DNA of 64,000 bases from assembly GCA_000752215.1 (NCBI GenBank), contig CCFG01000017.1, forward strand, positions 930,001-994,000, read 5' to 3'. The translations under genes and the position numbers were made by a program. The notes beneath the pieces were generated by a model. The model was not told the DNA's origin. It saw only the letters and a program-made list of their open reading frames with translations, and searched no databases. Positions 9,657 through 18,310 of this stretch are shown here, one piece after another (the first letter of the stretch is position 1; every line of letters starts with the position of its first letter). The stretch is from a bacterium MS4 (GTDB lineage: Bacteria; Bacillota; Clostridia; Oscillospirales; Acutalibacteraceae).

Positions 9657-9705
9657 GAGAGACCGGCGTCAATGCTTCTGCATTGGCGCCGGTCTCTTGC
9701 TCTAT
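9657..9705. terminator. Long hairpin between convergent genes
   Basis: AGAGACCGGCG.CAATGC-TTCT-GCATTG.GCGCCGGTCTCT is a nearly perfect stem of about 17 bp between the HPr gene and the convergent NlpC/P60 gene. The T-tract after it is interrupted. It probably ends the hexitol operon. Confidence 0.65.
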
Positions 9706-10799
9706 TCTTTTGCATCCTCAATTTTCCCGTCGCACAGAACGACCTTGCGGTCCTGTATTCTGTAGGTTCCGTCCCTGACATAGGTAAGGGTCGGCACCTG
9801 CAGATAATGCTCCCAACCGCGCCCTGCAAGTTCGGTCTTTACAACGCCGTACCGGTTCCCCCTGGCCTCGATCACCTCGCCCCCGCCGACATAAACGCCG
9901 ATGTGGCCGCTCCTGTGGACCGCCAGCCCCGGGGTATCCGGCATCGCGGAAATATCGCCCTTGACCTCAGCCGACTCGAAAAGGCCGTCCGCCGTACAGT
10001 CCGGCAGAGCGCCCTGCCGCTTTGCGGAAATTTCCCCCGTCGACTCGTCCAGCCAGCAATACGCCTTGATCAGCCCGCTGCAGTCAAAGCCCGGCCTCCC
10101 TCCAAAATTCAGGTAGATGGCGTTTACCTGCTCCCCGCTCAGGTCCGCCCGGTCCACCCCGTCGAACCGCTGCTGCTGTTTTTGCAGAAAGGGCATCCGG
10201 ATCGTCTGGCCGACCGCCCCGTAAACGTAGCCGCTTTTGCAGGCCAGCGCGTTCCAGGCGAAATTGGCAAGGCCGATATTGTTTTTCAGCCCGTCCCCGC
10301 TTTTCAGATTTTTTTGCAGCAGGGAAACGGAATCGACATACCCGGGCGCCAGCTCCGTACTCAGGCCGGTCATCGACTTCCTCTGCGCGCTGTCGACCGA
10401 AAGGCCGAATTCCAGCTCGATCCTCTCAAAGATTCCGTCCGTATCCTCAAAGGGTACGGGCGTATTCTTTTCTTCTCTATAGAAACATTTTACAAGGCGC
10501 TCCCTCACATTGCTTTTGTCCGGGTACCGGCTGTTGTCAAACAGGGTGATGTAGACGGCATACAGCAGCTGTGTGTTGATCTGTTCCCCCTGCGGGGTAC
10601 GCAGAAGCACCTGTGAAACCAGGGGCTTGAAATCCTCCGACACCGTTTCCAGCGCGTATTCCCTCAGGCTTTCCTTCTGCCCGGCGCAACTTTTTACAAC
10701 GGAAACGATCAGAAGAAGCACCATCAGCAGGATGCCGGCGGCTGCCCAAAACCGTTTTTTTATGATAATTCGCGGAATACTATGTCTTGTGACGATCAT
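9702..10799 (-). CDS. Membrane-anchored NlpC/P60 cell-wall hydrolase
   Basis: A 365-residue protein with one N-terminal membrane segment (about residues 17-36) and a C-terminal NlpC/P60 peptidase domain facing the wall. The catalytic cysteine is in GFDCSGL and the histidine in GHIGVYVGGG. Enzymes of this family cut gamma-D-Glu-diamino acid bonds in peptidoglycan stem peptides. The middle region (40-190) is not recognised. The frame is open much further upstream, but AGGAGGTA directly before the ATG at 10799 sets the start. It is a single gene, divergent from rlmB. Confidence 0.85.
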   Translation of the reverse strand: MIVTRHSIPRIIIKKRFWAAAGILLMVLLLIVSVVKSCAGQKESLREYALETVSEDFKPLVSQVLLRTPQGEQINTQLLYAVYITLFDNSRYPDKSNVRERLVKCFYREEKNTPVPFEDTDGIFERIELEFGLSVDSAQRKSMTGLSTELAPGYVDSVSLLQKNLKSGDGLKNNIGLANFAWNALACKSGYVYGAVGQTIRMPFLQKQQQRFDGVDRADLSGEQVNAIYLNFGGRPGFDCSGLIKAYCWLDESTGEISAKRQGALPDCTADGLFESAEVKGDISAMPDTPGLAVHRSGHIGVYVGGGEVIEARGNRYGVVKTELAGRGWEHYLQVPTLTYVRDGTYRIQDRKVVLCDGKIEDAKE

Positions 10800-10882
10800 G
10801 ATTGCCGTACCTCCTGAATCTTTCCTATGCACAGACGGGGAAAAGTATGAGCAAACCGGAAAAGTTTTGAAGTTCCGCTCAT

Positions 10883-10911
10883 TGACGGGCATGTCCATAT
10901 CTGCTAAAATA
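10883..10911 (+). promoter_or_regulatory. Promoter for the rlmB operon
   Basis: TTGACG (10883-10888) and TAAAAT (10906-10911) are spaced by 17 bases. The 5' leader of about 110 bases contains two GC-rich hairpins (GGCGG/CCGCC near 10945 and a second near 10965) before the RBS of rlmB. Confidence 0.7.
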
Positions 10912-11027
10912 GAAAATGTATAGTTAATTTGAAATTCAAAGTAGGCGGGGAAAATCCGCCCTTTCCCGGACTCCGGGCGAATTTTGGAAGATTGTGCCAT
11001 ATTTATGAAAATAGGGAGTAAAAATAG

Positions 11028-11795
11028 ATGAACGAAGAAAAAAAACAGCGCGGCGACGACATTATTGCGGGAAGGAACGCCGTGAGCGAAGCCATGCGCA
11101 GCGGACGCAGCATCGACAGCCTTTACGTTGTCCGCGGGGCGCACACCGGCAGCCTGAGCGCGCTGATCGCCAAGGCAAAGGAGAAAGGGATCGCCATTAA
11201 GGAAGCGGACGGCAAAAAGCTGGATTTCCTGTGCGGCAACGCCAATCATCAGGGCGTGGTCGCCGTAGCGGCGGTCAGGGAATACGCGACCGTCGACGAT
11301 ATTTTCCGGCTTGCCGAAGAGCGGAACGAGCCCCCGTTCATCATTGTGGCGGACGAGCTGGAGGACCCGCACAATCTGGGCGCGGTTCTGCGGGTGGCGG
11401 AATGCGCCGGCGCGCACGGTGTCATCATTCCCAAGCGGCGCGCGGCGGGCCTGACCTACGCGGTCGGAAAGGCCAGCGCGGGCGCGGTGGAATACGTCCC
11501 GGTTGCCAGGGTGACGAACATCACCGCCGCCATCGACGAGCTGAAAAAGCGCGGCGTCTGGATTTACGCCGCCGATATGGACGGAGAGCCCTGGTGCGGC
11601 GTGGATTATTCCGGCCCGGCCGCCATTGTGATCGGCTCCGAGGGCGCGGGTGTCGGGCGGCTGGTAAAAGAAAAATGTGATTTTGTCATATCTTTGCCGA
11701 TGAAGGGTAAAATAAATTCGCTTAATGCTTCGGTCGCCTGCGGCATCATCTGTTATGAAATTGCACGCCAGCGCAGTGGGATTAAGACAAAATAA
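11028..11795 (+). CDS. rlmB: 23S rRNA (guanosine-2'-O-)-methyltransferase, RlmB/TrmH family
   Basis: A 255-residue SPOUT methyltransferase with the N-terminal substrate-binding domain followed by the knotted catalytic domain. The three family motifs are present: DPHNLGAVLR (about residue 113), VIGSEGAGV (about 203) and LPMKGKINSLNASVA near the C-terminus. By family it 2'-O-methylates a 23S rRNA guanosine (G2251 in E. coli). It is first in a three-gene run, 16 bases ahead of the large membrane protein gene. Confidence 0.9.
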   Translation: MNEEKKQRGDDIIAGRNAVSEAMRSGRSIDSLYVVRGAHTGSLSALIAKAKEKGIAIKEADGKKLDFLCGNANHQGVVAVAAVREYATVDDIFRLAEERNEPPFIIVADELEDPHNLGAVLRVAECAGAHGVIIPKRRAAGLTYAVGKASAGAVEYVPVARVTNITAAIDELKKRGVWIYAADMDGEPWCGVDYSGPAAIVIGSEGAGVGRLVKEKCDFVISLPMKGKINSLNASVACGIICYEIARQRSGIKTK

Positions 11796-11811
11796 TACAG
11801 GAGCGATCAAT

Positions 11812-14800
11812 ATGGGCGACAATCAAAAAGCTCCGCGCGACAAATTTTCGTTAGACGAGATTTTAGCGGAAGCGCGCACTTTGGAAACAGGAAAACAGGA
11901 GCCTGCGCCCACCGAACAAAAGGCAAAGGCTGACCCGGGACGAAAAAAAGCGGTTGCCACACCGGAGGAAATTGCCCGGCAGGCAAAAATCGCTCTGGAC
12001 GCAAAAGTGTCCTCCCTTCCGCAGCACCCCGCCGCGCCGGAACCGGAAAAGACAAAGAGCCGCGGCAGGGGATTTTTCAAACGCCGCAAGCAGGACTTTC
12101 CGGAGCCGGAGGAGGACGCAGACATTTACTACGGCCTTCAGCTGCGGTCGCTGGAGGACTACCGCGCGGAATACGGAAAAATAGAGGCCCCCGTGCCCCA
12201 TTCGGAGAAGAAAGAGGGAGACTCGGTCTTTTCCTATCTTTTCAGCGAAACCGGCGACGACGTGGTGGACGACGAGGTTGCCGAACGGTTTGAGCGCCTT
12301 CACAGCGAACGCAAAAAGCGCGTGAAAAAAATCATGAGCCAGGTCGGCCTGGATGAGGACGATATCTTTTCCCTGTACGAGGACCAGCCGGCCGGCGAAG
12401 GTCCGAAGGCGAAAGAACCGCCGCCGGAGCCGGAAGAACCCGAGGAGCCGTATGCTCCCACCGTGATTCCTCCCGCACCGCAGCCCGCCCCCGGTCCGGC
12501 TCCCCAGCCAAAGCCGGAGATAGCGCCCGGCCCCGCGCCGGAGCCGGAAATACGCGAGCCTCACCCGGAACCGGTGTTCCAGCCGTCGGCCCCGCCGATG
12601 ACTCCGCAGACACCGTTCCAGCCCGACGCCGTTCCTTCCATCCGCTGCCGGCTTTCGGAAGAGCCGGTCAAGGAGCCTGTGGCTGCGCCGGCGGTAAAGG
12701 AAGAGGTCCCGCCTCCGCCCCCCGTCAGGGAACCGGGAAAGCCGGTGCCGCGGTCGGCGGAAAACGCATGCAGCTACCGGGCGGATTTCAGAAAGCCCGT
12801 TCATTTTATCCAACTGAATAATTATGAGGAAGTTTTGTCAGAAGCGGCGGCGGGCTATCCGCCCGCCAAGCCGAAGCAGCCTCCGCCGCCGATCCGGATT
12901 CCCGTCGAACCGTCCGGCGGCGCGGGCGTGCCGGAGGAAGGCGCGGAGCAGGCGGAAGATTTTTTCAACGAAGCTCCGCAGCCCATCCCCTTCCCCGAAC
13001 CCGTTCCTTCCCTGGCCATGGACCCCGAAGAAGGAGAAGCGCTCGAAAGCTCTTTCCAGCCGGAGGAAGAGGACGGAGCCAAACCGGAGAAAAAGAAAAG
13101 CTTCAGCGTGTTCGGAAACGAGGAAGAGGACAACGACTCCACCGACAACCTGCCCGGCGAGCCGGAGGAGCTGGACGACTACCAGAGTCCGTCGGACGCT
13201 CCCTCCATCTTCCACGACCTCAGCGCCAATATCCGAACGCTGTATCTCCGGCTGGCCGTTACGGGCATCAGCTTTGTGATTCTCCTTATTTCCGGTATCC
13301 TGCGGGATTATTCCTCCCTGCTGCCGGAAGCGGTCCGGGACTGGACGGGAGCGCAGCCGTACATAATTCTGAACCTTGTATTTCTGCTGACTGCCACCGC
13401 TTTCAGCATCACGCCCATCCTGAACGGATTAAAGGGGCTGGTCACGTTCCAGGCCAACGCGGACAGCGGCGTCGCCGTTGCGGATATCGCCGCGCTCATC
13501 CAGAATATTTCCCTGCTGTTTTCCGTGCAGAGCCTGCAGACCGGGAATCTGCATCTGTACTCTATTCTTGTGGTGATGGCCCTGTTCTTAAACGCCGCAG
13601 GAAAGCTCAGCTTTGCCAGGCGGATCGACCGCAATTTTCATTTTGTCGCCGCGCCCGACCAGAAACAGGCCGTGCAGCTTTTCGACGACCACAACATCGC
13701 ACTGCAGATGACGAGCGGCTGCGTGATGGACGCGCCGGTCATCGCCTATCAGACAAAGACGAATTTTTTGAAACAGTTTCTAAGCCTTTCCTATGAGCCG
13801 GACCCAAGCGAGCAGTCCTCACAGGTAGCGGCTCCCATCGGATTCGTATCTTCTCTCATACTGTGCATTGTTACGCTCATATTATTTAAGGATATTTTTA
13901 GCGCGCTGACCGCCTTCGCGGCTGCCGCGTGCATCTGCGTCCCCTTTGTCAATATGCTCAGCGTCAACCTTCCGGTCAACCGGGTCAGCCGTATCGCCGC
14001 CCGCTGCGGCGCAATGATCGTCGGCTATCCCGCGATCGACCGGTTCAGCGGGGTCAACGCCGTGCTGGTGGACGCGAAAGAGCTGTTCCCCAAGGGGACC
14101 GTCGTGCTGAACGCGATCAAAACCTTCGGCGGGCAGCGCATCGACGACGCCATTGTGGACGCCACCGCCCTGATGTGCGCGGTGGGCGGGCCGTTAAGCG
14201 ACCTGTTCGACCAGATCATCAAGAGCCGCCGCGACATGCTTCCGAAAATCGACAATACGGTCTATGAGGACGACAAGGGCGTTACCGGGTGGGTTTCCGG
14301 GCGAAGGATTCTGGTGGGCAGCCGCAAGCTGATGGAAGCCCACAGCATTGAGCCGCCCTCGCGCGATTATGAAGAAAAATACATCCGCACCGGAAAGAGA
14401 ATCGTTTATCTGGCCTCCGGCGGGGAACTGGTCGCCATGTTTGTGGTCTCCTACAATTCCGACCGCCGCCGCGCCATGGAGCTAAGGCGCATGGAAGACA
14501 ACGGCATCAGCCTGATCGTGCGCACCTGCGACCCGAACATCACCCCGGCTCTGCTGGCGGAATGCTTCGGGCTGGAAGAACACTCCGTGCGCGTGCTGCC
14601 CGAGCGGCTGGGGAGCATCTATACCGAAATGACGGCTTCCCCGCAGGAGCGTTCCGAAGCGGTCATGGCCACAAAGGGCCGTCCGACCGCCATGATGCGT
14701 CTGCTGACAGCGTGCGTCCGCCAGCGCAGCAACATCTCCATTGCGCTTGCCCTGCAGAACGTTGCGGTGATTCTCGGCCTTCTGCTGGTCGCGTTTTTGA

Positions 14801-14904
14801 CCTGCTATTCCGGGCTCGGCCAGCTGACCGTCACCGCGCTGATGATTTACGAGCTGTTCTGGGCGGCGGCAATCCTGATTGTGCCCAGGCTTCGCAAGCC
14901 TTGA
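11812..14904 (+). CDS. Degenerate P-type ATPase-like membrane protein with a long disordered N-terminus
   Basis: A 1030-residue protein. Residues 1 to about 470 are charged and rich in Pro/Glu, predicted disordered and cytosolic. The rest follows the plan of a P1-type ATPase: two membrane hairpins (about 476-600), an actuator-like soluble part (about 605-670), a third hairpin (about 680-730), a P/N-like cytosolic part (about 735-960) and a last hairpin (about 975-1025). Blocks that look homologous are GVTGWVSGRRILVG (N domain) and IRTGKRIVYLASGGELVAMF (start of P2). The catalytic motifs are gone: DKTGT reads DAKEL (D754), TGES is absent, TGDN is replaced by RTCDPN, and there is no GDGxND. It should not pump ions. 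AGGAGCG precedes the ATG at 11812. Function unknown. Confidence 0.75.
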   Translation: MGDNQKAPRDKFSLDEILAEARTLETGKQEPAPTEQKAKADPGRKKAVATPEEIARQAKIALDAKVSSLPQHPAAPEPEKTKSRGRGFFKRRKQDFPEPEEDADIYYGLQLRSLEDYRAEYGKIEAPVPHSEKKEGDSVFSYLFSETGDDVVDDEVAERFERLHSERKKRVKKIMSQVGLDEDDIFSLYEDQPAGEGPKAKEPPPEPEEPEEPYAPTVIPPAPQPAPGPAPQPKPEIAPGPAPEPEIREPHPEPVFQPSAPPMTPQTPFQPDAVPSIRCRLSEEPVKEPVAAPAVKEEVPPPPPVREPGKPVPRSAENACSYRADFRKPVHFIQLNNYEEVLSEAAAGYPPAKPKQPPPPIRIPVEPSGGAGVPEEGAEQAEDFFNEAPQPIPFPEPVPSLAMDPEEGEALESSFQPEEEDGAKPEKKKSFSVFGNEEEDNDSTDNLPGEPEELDDYQSPSDAPSIFHDLSANIRTLYLRLAVTGISFVILLISGILRDYSSLLPEAVRDWTGAQPYIILNLVFLLTATAFSITPILNGLKGLVTFQANADSGVAVADIAALIQNISLLFSVQSLQTGNLHLYSILVVMALFLNAAGKLSFARRIDRNFHFVAAPDQKQAVQLFDDHNIALQMTSGCVMDAPVIAYQTKTNFLKQFLSLSYEPDPSEQSSQVAAPIGFVSSLILCIVTLILFKDIFSALTAFAAAACICVPFVNMLSVNLPVNRVSRIAARCGAMIVGYPAIDRFSGVNAVLVDAKELFPKGTVVLNAIKTFGGQRIDDAIVDATALMCAVGGPLSDLFDQIIKSRRDMLPKIDNTVYEDDKGVTGWVSGRRILVGSRKLMEAHSIEPPSRDYEEKYIRTGKRIVYLASGGELVAMFVVSYNSDRRRAMELRRMEDNGISLIVRTCDPNITPALLAECFGLEEHSVRVLPERLGSIYTEMTASPQERSEAVMATKGRPTAMMRLLTACVRQRSNISIALALQNVAVILGLLLVAFLTCYSGLGQLTVTALMIYELFWAAAILIVPRLRKP

Positions 14905-14932: not shown

Positions 14933-15565
14933 ATGAAGAAAGACCTTTATAAGCGCATGGCGATGGTGTGCGTCGGCACCCTGATCATGGGCTTTGCCGT
15001 GTCCCTTTCCGTATATGCCCGCCTGGGAACGGACCCCTGCACCTGTATGAATACCGGGCTGGCGCAGCTGCTCGGCATGAGCTTCGGCGTATGGCAGCTG
15101 ATCATGAACAGCATCATGCTGGTTTTCACCTTTTTCTTCGCCCGCGATAAGATCGGCTTCGGTACGATCGTCAACATGGTCGCCATCGGCTTTCTGGTGG
15201 ATTTTTTCAGCTGGCTCTTCACGTTTTTCCTGCCGCCCGTGCCGCCGCTTTTCCTCAGAATCGCCTGCATGCTTCTGGGCATCGGCATTCTCGCTTTTAC
15301 CGCCGCGCTTTACATGTATCCCGATCTGGGCGTTTCGCCCTACGACAGCATCGGCTTTATCCTCGCCCGCTTCCTTCACGCGCAGTACCGTTGGTGCCGC
15401 GTCGGCTACGACGTTACGGCCGTCCTCCTCGGCGCCTCTTTGGGCGGCGTTGCGGGGATCGGCACCGTCATCACCGCGTTCTGCATGGGGCCGCTGATTA
15501 AATTTTTCGGCGACCGGATGCCGAAATGGTTCCCCCTTGAAAGGAAACCCCTGATAAGCAACTAA
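14933..15565 (+). CDS. YczE/YitT-like integral membrane protein
   Basis: A 210-residue protein with five or six membrane segments over nearly its whole length, resembling the YczE family (the YitT/YyaS group) of Gram-positive membrane proteins. Conserved-looking parts are the first hairpin with ARLGTDP and the later DLGVSPYDS motif. The biochemical role of the family is not established. The ATG at 14933 follows GAGAAAG, 28 bases after the preceding gene, so it is probably cotranscribed with it and ends the operon at the terminator 15564-15606. Confidence 0.75.
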   Translation: MKKDLYKRMAMVCVGTLIMGFAVSLSVYARLGTDPCTCMNTGLAQLLGMSFGVWQLIMNSIMLVFTFFFARDKIGFGTIVNMVAIGFLVDFFSWLFTFFLPPVPPLFLRIACMLLGIGILAFTAALYMYPDLGVSPYDSIGFILARFLHAQYRWCRVGYDVTAVLLGASLGGVAGIGTVITAFCMGPLIKFFGDRMPKWFPLERKPLISN

Positions 15566-15652: not shown

Positions 15653-16114
15653 CTATTTTAGAAAGCCGTCGATAATTTTCTGCGCTCCGGCGTTGTCGTC
15701 CGACACGCACAGGATGACATATTTTCCGTTTTTCACCAGAACGGGCGATTTCAGCTTCGCCATTTCCTGCGGCTGATAATCCGTAAAACCGGCCCGCTGG
15801 TCTTCAATTCTGCTCTGCGCGGCCTCTTCCACCTTCCCGGCGGAAGTTTCGTCCTTCGCTTCAAAAACCGCCACTTCCTCCGCCGTGGCCCCGGTGCTTT
15901 CATAAATGTCCGATTTGGAAACGGAGCTTTCGTCAAGTCCGTACAGCTTAAGCGCCGTTTTGCTGTCAAGCTTCGACATTTGATCCGCAAACCGGATCGA
16001 GGATATCAGTTTTTCAGCAACCGCCCCGGTGTCCACCGACTTCGGGGTGCTTGCGGCACAGCCCGCCGCAAACAGCAGCGCGCCCGCCAGAATCACCATG
16101 ATCGCTCTCTTCAT
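15653..16114 (-). CDS. Small secreted lipoprotein (DUF4358-like)
   Basis: A 153-residue protein with an N-terminal signal and lipobox LFAAGC, so it is predicted to be lipid-anchored outside the membrane. The remainder resembles the DUF4358 family, which is common in Clostridia and has no known function. It starts six bases after the SGNH-hydrolase-like gene and ends at a bidirectional terminator, so the two are a cotranscribed pair and may act together on the cell surface. Confidence 0.8.
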   Translation of the reverse strand: MKRAIMVILAGALLFAAGCAASTPKSVDTGAVAEKLISSIRFADQMSKLDSKTALKLYGLDESSVSKSDIYESTGATAEEVAVFEAKDETSAGKVEEAAQSRIEDQRAGFTDYQPQEMAKLKSPVLVKNGKYVILCVSDDNAGAQKIIDGFLK

Positions 16115-17302: not shown

Positions 17303-18310
17303 TTATTTCTGTGCCTCGAAAACCGCAACCGCGCAGGCTACCGTAGCGCCTACCATCGGGTTGTTGCCCATGCCGATCAGGCCCATCATTTCCACGTGCG
17401 CGGGAACGGAAGAGGAACCGGCAAACTGAGCGTCGCCGTGCATGCGTCCCATGGAATCCGTCAGTCCGTAGGAAGCGGGACCGGCGCCCATGTTGTCCGG
17501 ATGCAGGGTACGGCCGGTGCCGCCGCCGCTGGCAACGGAGAAATACTTCCTGCCGTTTTCCTGCGCCCACTTCTTGTAGGTGCCGGCGACCAGGTGCTGG
17601 AAGCGGGTCGGGTTGGTGGAGTTGCCGGTGATGGAAACGTCGACGCCCTCCGCCTGCATGATCGCAACGCCCTCGCGGACGTCGTTCGCGCCGTAGCATT
17701 TGACCGCCGCGCGCTCACCGTCGGAGAAAGCCTTTGTCTCAACGACCTTCAGCTCGTCGTTAAAGAAGTCGAAATCGGTCTTTACATAGGTAAAGCCGTT
17801 GACTCTTGAAATGATATACGCGGCGTCCTTGCCGAGGCCGTTCAGGATAATCCGGAGCGGCTCCTTGCGGGCGCGGTTCGCGGTGCGGGCAATTCCGATG
17901 GCGCCCTCGGCGGCGGCAAAGGATTCGTGGCCCGCCAGGAAAGCAAAGCACTTCGTCTCGTCACGCAGGAGCATGGCGCCCAGGTTGCCGTGGCCCAGGC
18001 CGACTTTTCTCTGCTCGGCGACGGAACCGGGAACACAGAACGCTTCCAGACCGGCCCCGATCTTTTCGGCGGCCTCAGCGGCGGACTTTACGCCGGTCTT
18101 GACTCCAATTGCACAGCCGAGGGTATAGGCCCAGCTTGCGTTCTCAAATGCGATGGGCTGTACGCCCTTGACAATTTTATCTACATCGATCCCTTTGGAA
18201 AGGCAAAGGTCGCGAGCGTCTTCGAGGCTGGCAAGGCCATACTCGGCAAGACACTTCTCTATTTTGGCCATTCTTCTTTCTTTTCCTTCAAACATGACAT
18301 CGTTAGCCAT
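17303..18310 (-). CDS. GGGtGRT family protein
   Basis: A 335-residue protein with the signature SGGGTGRTLHPDNMGAG (about 255-271) that gives the GGGtGRT family its name. Other well-marked blocks are GNSTNPTRFQHL and GLIGMGNNPMVGAT. No signal peptide or membrane segment is visible. The glycine-rich signature suggests nucleotide or phosphate binding, but no activity is known. It follows the NifU-like gene by 27 bases with its own AAAGGAGGA, a pairing I know as recurrent in Clostridia. Confidence 0.85.
   Translation of the reverse strand: MANDVMFEGKERRMAKIEKCLAEYGLASLEDARDLCLSKGIDVDKIVKGVQPIAFENASWAYTLGCAIGVKTGVKSAAEAAEKIGAGLEAFCVPGSVAEQRKVGLGHGNLGAMLLRDETKCFAFLAGHESFAAAEGAIGIARTANRARKEPLRIILNGLGKDAAYIISRVNGFTYVKTDFDFFNDELKVVETKAFSDGERAAVKCYGANDVREGVAIMQAEGVDVSITGNSTNPTRFQHLVAGTYKKWAQENGRKYFSVASGGGTGRTLHPDNMGAGPASYGLTDSMGRMHGDAQFAGSSSVPAHVEMMGLIGMGNNPMVGATVACAVAVFEAQK

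Follow-up and report, generated by a model that had tools for sequence, protein, structure and literature searches.

The window, a stretch of 64,000 nucleotides from bacterium MS4 (assembly GCA_000752215.1, contig CCFG01000017.1), contains a gene for a relative of the P1B (CopA-type) ATPases at positions 11812..14904 on the + strand, directly downstream of rlmB. Unless stated otherwise, all features described below are located on this strand. The gene consists of 1030 codons plus a stop codon, with the ATG at position 11812 and the stop codon ending at 14904, and it is preceded by the Shine-Dalgarno sequence AGGAG (11799..11803), which was read directly from the sequence. The intact 1030-codon frame and its coordinates are exactly as given in the first-pass annotation, a short description made from the letters of the window. 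The upstream rlmB gene (11028..11795) encodes the 23S rRNA G2251 2'-O-methyltransferase and matches TIGR00186 with 238 bits against a cut-off of 160, and only 16 nucleotides separate its stop codon from the start of the gene under study. The encoded protein of 1030 amino acids contains a disordered head of 470 amino acids followed by a C-terminal half with eight transmembrane (TM) segments that is homologous to the P1B ATPases. Since this homology is clear but the defining features of the P1B ATPases are missing, we file the protein as a derived pseudoenzyme rather than as a member of that family, and it almost certainly originated from a CopA-like P1B P-type ATPase.

Homology to the P1B ATPases

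The C-terminal half matches solely P1B models in NCBIfam, with E-values of 2.2e-13 for the CopA model and 9.2e-12 for TIGR01525, and all of these matches are far below the curated cut-offs (51.7 bits against 1316 for CopA, and 46.8 bits against 346.25 for TIGR01525). The CopA model also matches 30 of 45 members of the pseudo-ATPase family. No Pfam model matched any of these 45 members, and the best Pfam match of the window protein, at E 0.13, was to an unrelated model and no better than chance. A phmmer search against the PDB retrieved the copper efflux ATPase 3rfu with an E-value of 6.5e-12. At the profile level, a comparison of 85 homologues with 34 P1B ATPases from the own genome and from relatives in the genus, family, and order (32 of them distinct, with DKTGT, GDGxND, and CPC all present) yielded a probability of 99.95% and an E-value of 8.7e-38 over 507 columns.

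The predicted membrane topology is likewise that of the P1B ATPases. An alignment of 122 sequences contains eight main hydropathy peaks, at residues 483-499, 517-535, 558-567, 584-594, 675-696, 698-716, 980-1004, and 1010-1020, with two single-residue blips at positions 873 and 1007 set aside, and the cytosolic loops are located after the fourth and sixth peaks, as in the P1B layout. The first four TM segments correspond to MA, MB, M1, and M2 (residues 483-594; 13258..13593) and are followed by a shortened remnant of the A domain that lacks the TGES segment (residues 611-672; 13642..13827) and has a median length of 62 residues in the 122 sequences. The next two TM segments, M3 and M4 (residues 675-716; 13834..13959), have lost the CPC motif and kept the M4 proline. 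The approximate N-domain (residues about 776-880; 14137..14451), which contains G823 and G836, has a structural match to 5lbd, and the protein ends with two TM segments equivalent to M5 and M6 (residues 980-1020; 14749..14871).

A structure model of the whole C-terminal half, built from six input sequences, had low confidence, with a predicted local distance difference test (pLDDT) score of 55.9 for the best model and 37.4-41.6 for the other four, and a Foldseek search with this weak model ranked the copper ATPase 4bbj first (E 2.7e-13). The best model of the P/N part reached a pLDDT of 80.6 and a predicted template modelling score (pTM) of 0.75, with 33.5-47.8 pLDDT for the other four, and its top Foldseek matches are P1B ATPases, including 4bbj (E 2.4e-13) and the N-domain of HMA6 (5lbd), with a TM-score of 0.76 by target and a root-mean-square deviation (rmsd) of 3.5. 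The top superpositions of the P/N part have a high rmsd of about 6-12 A, which may come from the angles between the domains. The first-pass annotation had described the C-terminal half as following the order of a P1-type ATPase and had proposed structure prediction and superposition as a check; the profile, PDB, hydropathy, and Foldseek results all bear out this description, and the predicted fold is related to the P-type ATPases.

Loss of the catalytic motifs

The catalytic motifs were compared in 122 homologues, comprising the window protein, 84 proteins from the same family (79 of 80 retrieved regions and five related loci, with one locus on a 1.5-kb contig excluded), and 37 proteins from the order's other families. 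When searched for as regular expressions, DKTGT, TGES, GDGxND, SEHP, and CPC had no match in any of the 122 C-terminal halves, and we could thus rule out that the motifs had merely shifted to another position. In the phmmer and profile alignments, the place of DKTGT is taken in the window by DAKEL (residues 754-758; 14071..14085), in which the catalytic aspartate itself survives. Among the 85 family members, 69 have an aspartate here, as do only 8 of the 37 members of the other families, and it is therefore not a conserved nucleophile. The sequence TCDPN (residues 905-909; 14524..14538) is found at the place of TGDN/K, such that the TGD aligns to TCD, with the T and D remaining; TGD as such is found somewhere in the C-terminal half of 1 of 85 and 4 of 37 members, respectively. 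The profile alignment has gaps where the segments with TGES and GDGxND would be, and these segments hence look deleted rather than mutated. The position of the SEHP histidine is mostly occupied by a glycine or a serine. The M4 proline, P711, is kept in 79/85 and 27/37 members (106/122).

The homologues have a signature of their own. An acidic residue at position 757, present in 105 of the 122 sequences, is followed by a hydrophobic residue, a phenylalanine or tyrosine, and usually a proline. Further conserved residues among the 122 sequences are G836 (122), G823 (120), Y881 (119), D907 (117), and N909 (103). The claim that all catalytic motifs are lost thus holds insofar as none of them is present in any of the 122 sequences, but it went too far for the aspartate of DKTGT and the T and D of TGD, which remain. 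A homologue search of the kind proposed along with that claim showed that the motif loss is common to all 122 proteins, and DKTGT, which in close orthologues would have spoken against a pseudo-ATPase, was not found in any of the homologues examined.

The ratio of nonsynonymous to synonymous substitution rates (dN/dS) was estimated from comparisons with five close relatives and amounts to 0.06-0.16 in the C-terminal half and 0.17-0.26 in the head. These ratios are approximate, as several of the pairs are close to saturation at synonymous sites. The C-terminal frame, taken as a stop-to-stop open reading frame (ORF), is open in 121 of the 122 members. The exception, L212 in genome G228, has a single in-frame TGA in the C-terminal half, for which a sequencing error, recoding, and a real break are all possible, and for which the piece downstream of the TGA was used. 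Given these dN/dS ratios, the gene is not decaying; the purifying selection and the shared loss of motifs agree with the earlier description of the protein as a pseudo-ATPase rather than the product of a decaying pseudogene.

The disordered head

The cytosolic head (residues 1-470; 11812..13221) contains 17% proline and 14% glutamic acid and is classed as disordered by the Uversky charge-hydropathy relation, so that both composition and score agree with the 470-residue disordered Pro/Glu-rich head recognised in the first pass. Among 119 members, the length of the head ranges from 16 to 1098 residues, with a median of 349, although these lengths are slightly too long since they were counted from the upstream stop codon in all members except the window. 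Disorder is predicted for 109 of the 112 heads with at least 80 residues.

Three short motifs recur in the heads. FSLDEILAEAR (residues 12-22; 11845..11877) is located near the tip of the head, and the class of N-terminal motifs to which it belongs, [FY]S[LV][DE][DE]IL, is present in 30 of 119 heads and in none of 119 shuffled heads, at a median distance of 21 residues from the start of the frame. The second motif, DIYYG (residues 104-108; 12121..12135), occurs in 14 of 112 heads and 1 of 112 shuffled heads. The juxtamembrane motif DDYQSPSDAPSIFHDL (residues 455-470; 13174..13221) ends the head, and the class with the strict form DDYxxxxDA is found in 20 of 119 heads and in none of 119 shuffled heads, with a median distance of 16 residues to the point where the head ends. 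A strict DNA pattern of the FSLDEILAEAR type matched once in the own genome, in this gene, and in 12 other genomes, picked for their motif-bearing heads, the strict DNA patterns of the motifs gave six matches, all within the frame of the homologue. We therefore rejected the idea that a head motif is shared with other proteins in these genomes, where the strict patterns, which may miss variants, matched this gene only.

Three members of family f10 (L201, L202, and L219) have frames of 553-554 amino acids, are still located just downstream of rlmB, and represent natural head-less versions of the protein. A juxtamembrane-like stretch is visible by eye in L125 and L126, which have short heads. The near-headless members keep the membrane and P/N core. 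Since there are members without a real head, the core has a role of its own, and the head is an added module. The suggestion from the first pass that the head gives the protein a scaffold or sensor role is plausible.

Distribution across the order

The named relatives of the gene are in Caproiciproducens species, a Clostridiales metagenome-assembled genome (MAG), and an Oscillospiraceae MAG, and the genus is assigned to the Acutalibacteraceae by NCBI. A search of the family identified some match at an E-value of 0.001 in 187 of 200 genomes, of which the weak ones may be ordinary ATPases. In the order, a profile of 40 members gave a best match with E < 1e-30 in 288 of 297 genomes (counted by hand; the motifs were checked in the retrieved members), and ordinary-looking ATPases in 20 genomes reached at best 7.8e-27 with this profile. 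Among the nine order genomes above 1e-30, three carry members of the family, one (G230) contains rlmB and, behind it, a head-like ORF truncated where the contig ends, and five contain ordinary ATPases only and no RlmB-grade match. The gene is thus near-universal in the searched genomes of one bacterial order, the Oscillospirales.

Outside the order, the pattern is different. In a search across the class with a profile of 45 members, all 12 order members matched over nearly the full length with E < 1e-90, whereas the best match in 231 genomes outside the order was 7.6e-43, and seven had no match at all. None of the outside matches listed in this search were full length, covering only about positions 189-495 of 560. 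A search across the phylum in 246 genomes outside the order, six of which were shared with the class search, gave a best match of 1.4e-41 and likewise none of full length among the matches listed, and the five best are intact ATPases with CPC, DKTGT, and GDGxND. In the inferred tree, 27 pseudo-ATPases are placed on one side of a branch with 100/100 support, which supports a single origin of the sampled sequences but, given long branches and joins that may be false, no particular placement relative to the P1B and P2 ATPases.

The absence of the gene was examined in 21 genomes, namely the 13 without a match in the family search and eight of the nine with weak matches in the order search. Two of these turned out to carry the gene, in three (including G230) a head-like ORF comes after rlmB and runs into the end of the contig, and two were set aside because the contig ends within about 0.4 kb. 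The others either kept rlmB alone or lacked both genes, as considered below.

Linkage to rlmB and the neighbouring genes

Of the 84 family loci, 82 have a gene for an RlmB homologue upstream in the same orientation, as do 35 of the 37 other loci. As three loci (L077, L107, and L230) start at or near the edge of the retrieved stretch, this corresponds to 117 of 118 testable loci in which the gene directly follows rlmB in the position of an operon partner, and the conservation of the rlmB neighbourhood, raised as a question in the first pass, is thereby answered. The only real exception is L228, which has no rlmB match in the retrieved flank. The gap between rlmB and the gene, measured to the first start codon that has a sequence resembling a Shine-Dalgarno site, is 24 nucleotides in the median and at most 30 nucleotides in 78/117 and at most 100 nucleotides in 101/117 loci, with nine overlaps; the 16 gaps longer than 100 nucleotides may reflect a wrongly picked start codon. 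The next best-kept neighbours are an Rpe-like gene (13/84 loci) and an EF-G-like gene located downstream on the same strand (12/84 and 11/37 loci). Both were named by reading the sequences rather than by a family search, and the counts are lower bounds because the flanks were limited. Out-of-frame and opposite-strand ORFs lying over rlmB or the gene were set aside as shadow ORFs, judged by their position. The EF-G-like GTPase gene is a possible further link to translation.

In the window, a consensus scan identified a promoter-like site upstream of rlmB (10882..10910; consensus scan only) and no such site on the + strand between rlmB and the pseudo-ATPase gene, a pattern that is consistent with the two genes forming one transcript. 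As far as sequence can tell, this constant position behind rlmB suggests that the gene is regulated together with ribosome maturation.

On the other side, the gene is followed by a gene for a YczE-like membrane protein (14933-15562), which matches its NCBIfam model with 118 bits, under the cut-off of 205 bits. The gene had been placed between rlmB and a YczE-like gene in the first-pass annotation, and of these two assignments, rlmB stands, with the TIGR00186 match, while the downstream gene can be called YczE-like only. The latter was found in the retrieved flank of only 5 out of 121 other loci and therefore does not qualify as a conserved partner. On the complementary strand, a divergently placed gene within 9702-11822 encodes a protein, the end of which resembles an NlpC/P60 cell-wall hydrolase by eye (FDCSGLIKAYCW), an assignment made without a family search. 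Further downstream on the same complementary strand are a DUF4358 gene (15656-16114) and, near it, a gene for a GGGtGRT protein (17306-18310; PF14057, E 5.3e-192), a Pfam family to which no function has been assigned to our knowledge.

A probable non-pumping role of the pseudo-ATPase

The reaction cycle of the P-type ATPases needs a conserved phosphorylation site, GDGxND, and TGES, and a pump without these and CPC should not run it. As a conserved phosphorylation site, GDGxND, TGES, and CPC are all missing here, the cycle should not run, and the protein is very probably non-pumping and unable to form and resolve a phosphoenzyme. The conservation throughout the order beside rlmB argues that the dead pump was probably given a new, non-pumping job, and the combination of a conserved fold, new near-invariant residues, and a motif-bearing tether speaks for binding over turnover. 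As the mode of working we tentatively favour that of a membrane-anchored regulator or scaffold, at somewhat less than an even chance. The motifs were lost by substitution (DKTGT, SEHP, and CPC) or apparent deletion (TGES and GDGxND) in a protein that kept the eight-helix body and the P/N fold, and under such a mechanism the P/N domain would bind a protein or a small ligand without turnover. In most members, the disordered tether would present FSLDEILAEAR near its tip and DDYxSPxDA next to the membrane, and these motifs, each recognised in a minority of heads, might draw a partner from the cytosol to the membrane. Expression together with RlmB would hint at a connection with ribosome maturation or the growth rate, and the best overall explanation, for which we see the balance as even, is that a dead P1B-derived pump serves as a membrane regulator or scaffold co-expressed with RlmB. 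In a bolder and improbable scenario, an ancestor of the order would have turned a copper pump into a non-pumping membrane hub, in which the tether motifs and the dead nucleotide domain gather RlmB or further factors of ribosome assembly at the membrane as a checkpoint of ribosome maturation.

Several observations weigh against a regulator or scaffold of this kind. The head is reduced to 16-18 amino acids in the three f10 members and to 32-43 amino acids in another four (L098, L117, L125, and L126), and as members with almost no head exist, the head is not the carrier of the whole function. The N-terminal motif is found in about a quarter of the heads and the strict juxtamembrane motif in the 20 of 119 given above. 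Acidic residues are kept in the P domain, at position 757 (D or E in 105/122) and at D907 (117/122), so that an unusual chemistry is possible. Five genomes keep rlmB without a recognisable copy of the gene, four of them with a size of 1.0-1.2 Mb and one of 1.8 Mb, and the gene is therefore dispensable for RlmB there. Another nine genomes lack both genes.

The kept acidic residues would also suit a still-active transporter, either an ATP-independent channel or carrier for a metal or another ion or a protein with changed chemistry at D757/D907, as would the eight TM segments and the M4 proline. We consider such a transporter quite unlikely, however, as CPC is absent from all 122 sequences, the TGES and GDGxND segments are missing, and the nucleophile position is an aspartate in few members outside the family; moreover, the own genome has 12 matches to PF00122 over the cut-off, and the eight that were retrieved carry DKTGT and GDGxND. 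The linkage to rlmB, far stronger than that to any other neighbour, and the joint absence of both genes from 9 of the 21 genomes instead raise the idea of direct binding to RlmB or to its substrate, with the protein acting as a membrane anchor or as a regulator in ribosome maturation. This is somewhat better placed than a transporter but still unlikely: co-transcription alone can keep adjacent genes together, five genomes retain rlmB without the gene, L228 lacks rlmB in its flank, and since the two genes lie side by side, gaps in the assemblies could explain some of the joint absences.

The homology to CopA and the presence of active P1B ATPases (matches over the family cut-off) in the own genome as well as in each of the 20 genomes checked would fit a regulatory partner that pairs with CopA or ZntA as a heterodimer and thereby modulates the active pump. 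None of the listed clusters of neighbouring genes looked like a P1B gene, though no dedicated search was made, and we give this partnership only a slim chance. A decaying pseudogene or a chance resemblance to the P-type ATPases might account for the lost motifs, the missed curated cut-offs, and the in-frame TGA in 1 of 122 members, but both are refuted. The former is ruled out by the dN/dS ratios of 0.06-0.26, the other 121 open C-terminal frames, and the order-wide conservation with invariant residues, and the latter by the profile-profile, PDB, and fold searches.

A family that is near-universal in an order, with the architecture kept and the catalytic motifs lost, would show that the P-type scaffold is reusable for other roles, and the conserved residues of its dead N/P domain provide a natural test of the P-type fold without phosphorylation. 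The family marks a whole order, and its fixed place after rlmB offers an immediate entry point for experiments.

Comparison with known systems

A literature search found no description of such a family among the open-access papers listed, with most subscription papers outside its scope. Among inactive membrane enzymes, the iRhom pseudoproteases are scaffolds, and they resemble the pseudo-ATPase in that a membrane enzyme has lost its catalysis but kept its fold and a cytosolic extension, although the fold itself is unrelated.

The closest known systems are the CopA P1B copper ATPases, represented by 3rfu and 4bbj, presumably both LCopA, and by the P/N domains 2b8e and 3a1c. They share with the pseudo-ATPase the order of the eight TM segments, the A-P-N-P layout, and the fold of the P/N part, and in the N-domain, the glycine of VGN and the second glycine of GxG are kept. 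The pseudo-ATPase differs from CopA in the absence of DKTGT, TGES, GDGxND, SEHP, and CPC, the shortened A domain, the disordered N-terminal head, and the linkage to rlmB. The ZntA/CadA P1B zinc/cadmium ATPases belong to the same superfamily and match the C-terminal half more weakly (4.6e-9), and the pseudo-ATPase differs from them in the same respects, that is, in the catalytic motifs, the A domain, the head, and the rlmB linkage.

Deviations from DKTGT are reported to be rare: 99.77% of the catalogued P-type ATPases keep this motif, and point-mutated sequences without it number 5 from eukaryotes and 17 from bacteria (PMC3896382). These variants resemble the pseudo-ATPase in being P-type ATPase homologues without a perfect DKTGT, but they are reported as single point changes in otherwise clear ATPases, whereas the pseudo-ATPase family lacks all of the motifs and does so throughout an order. 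The P-type ATPases belong to the most thoroughly studied pumps, with the aspartate of DKTGT as their defining feature, and it is from this feature that the family departs.

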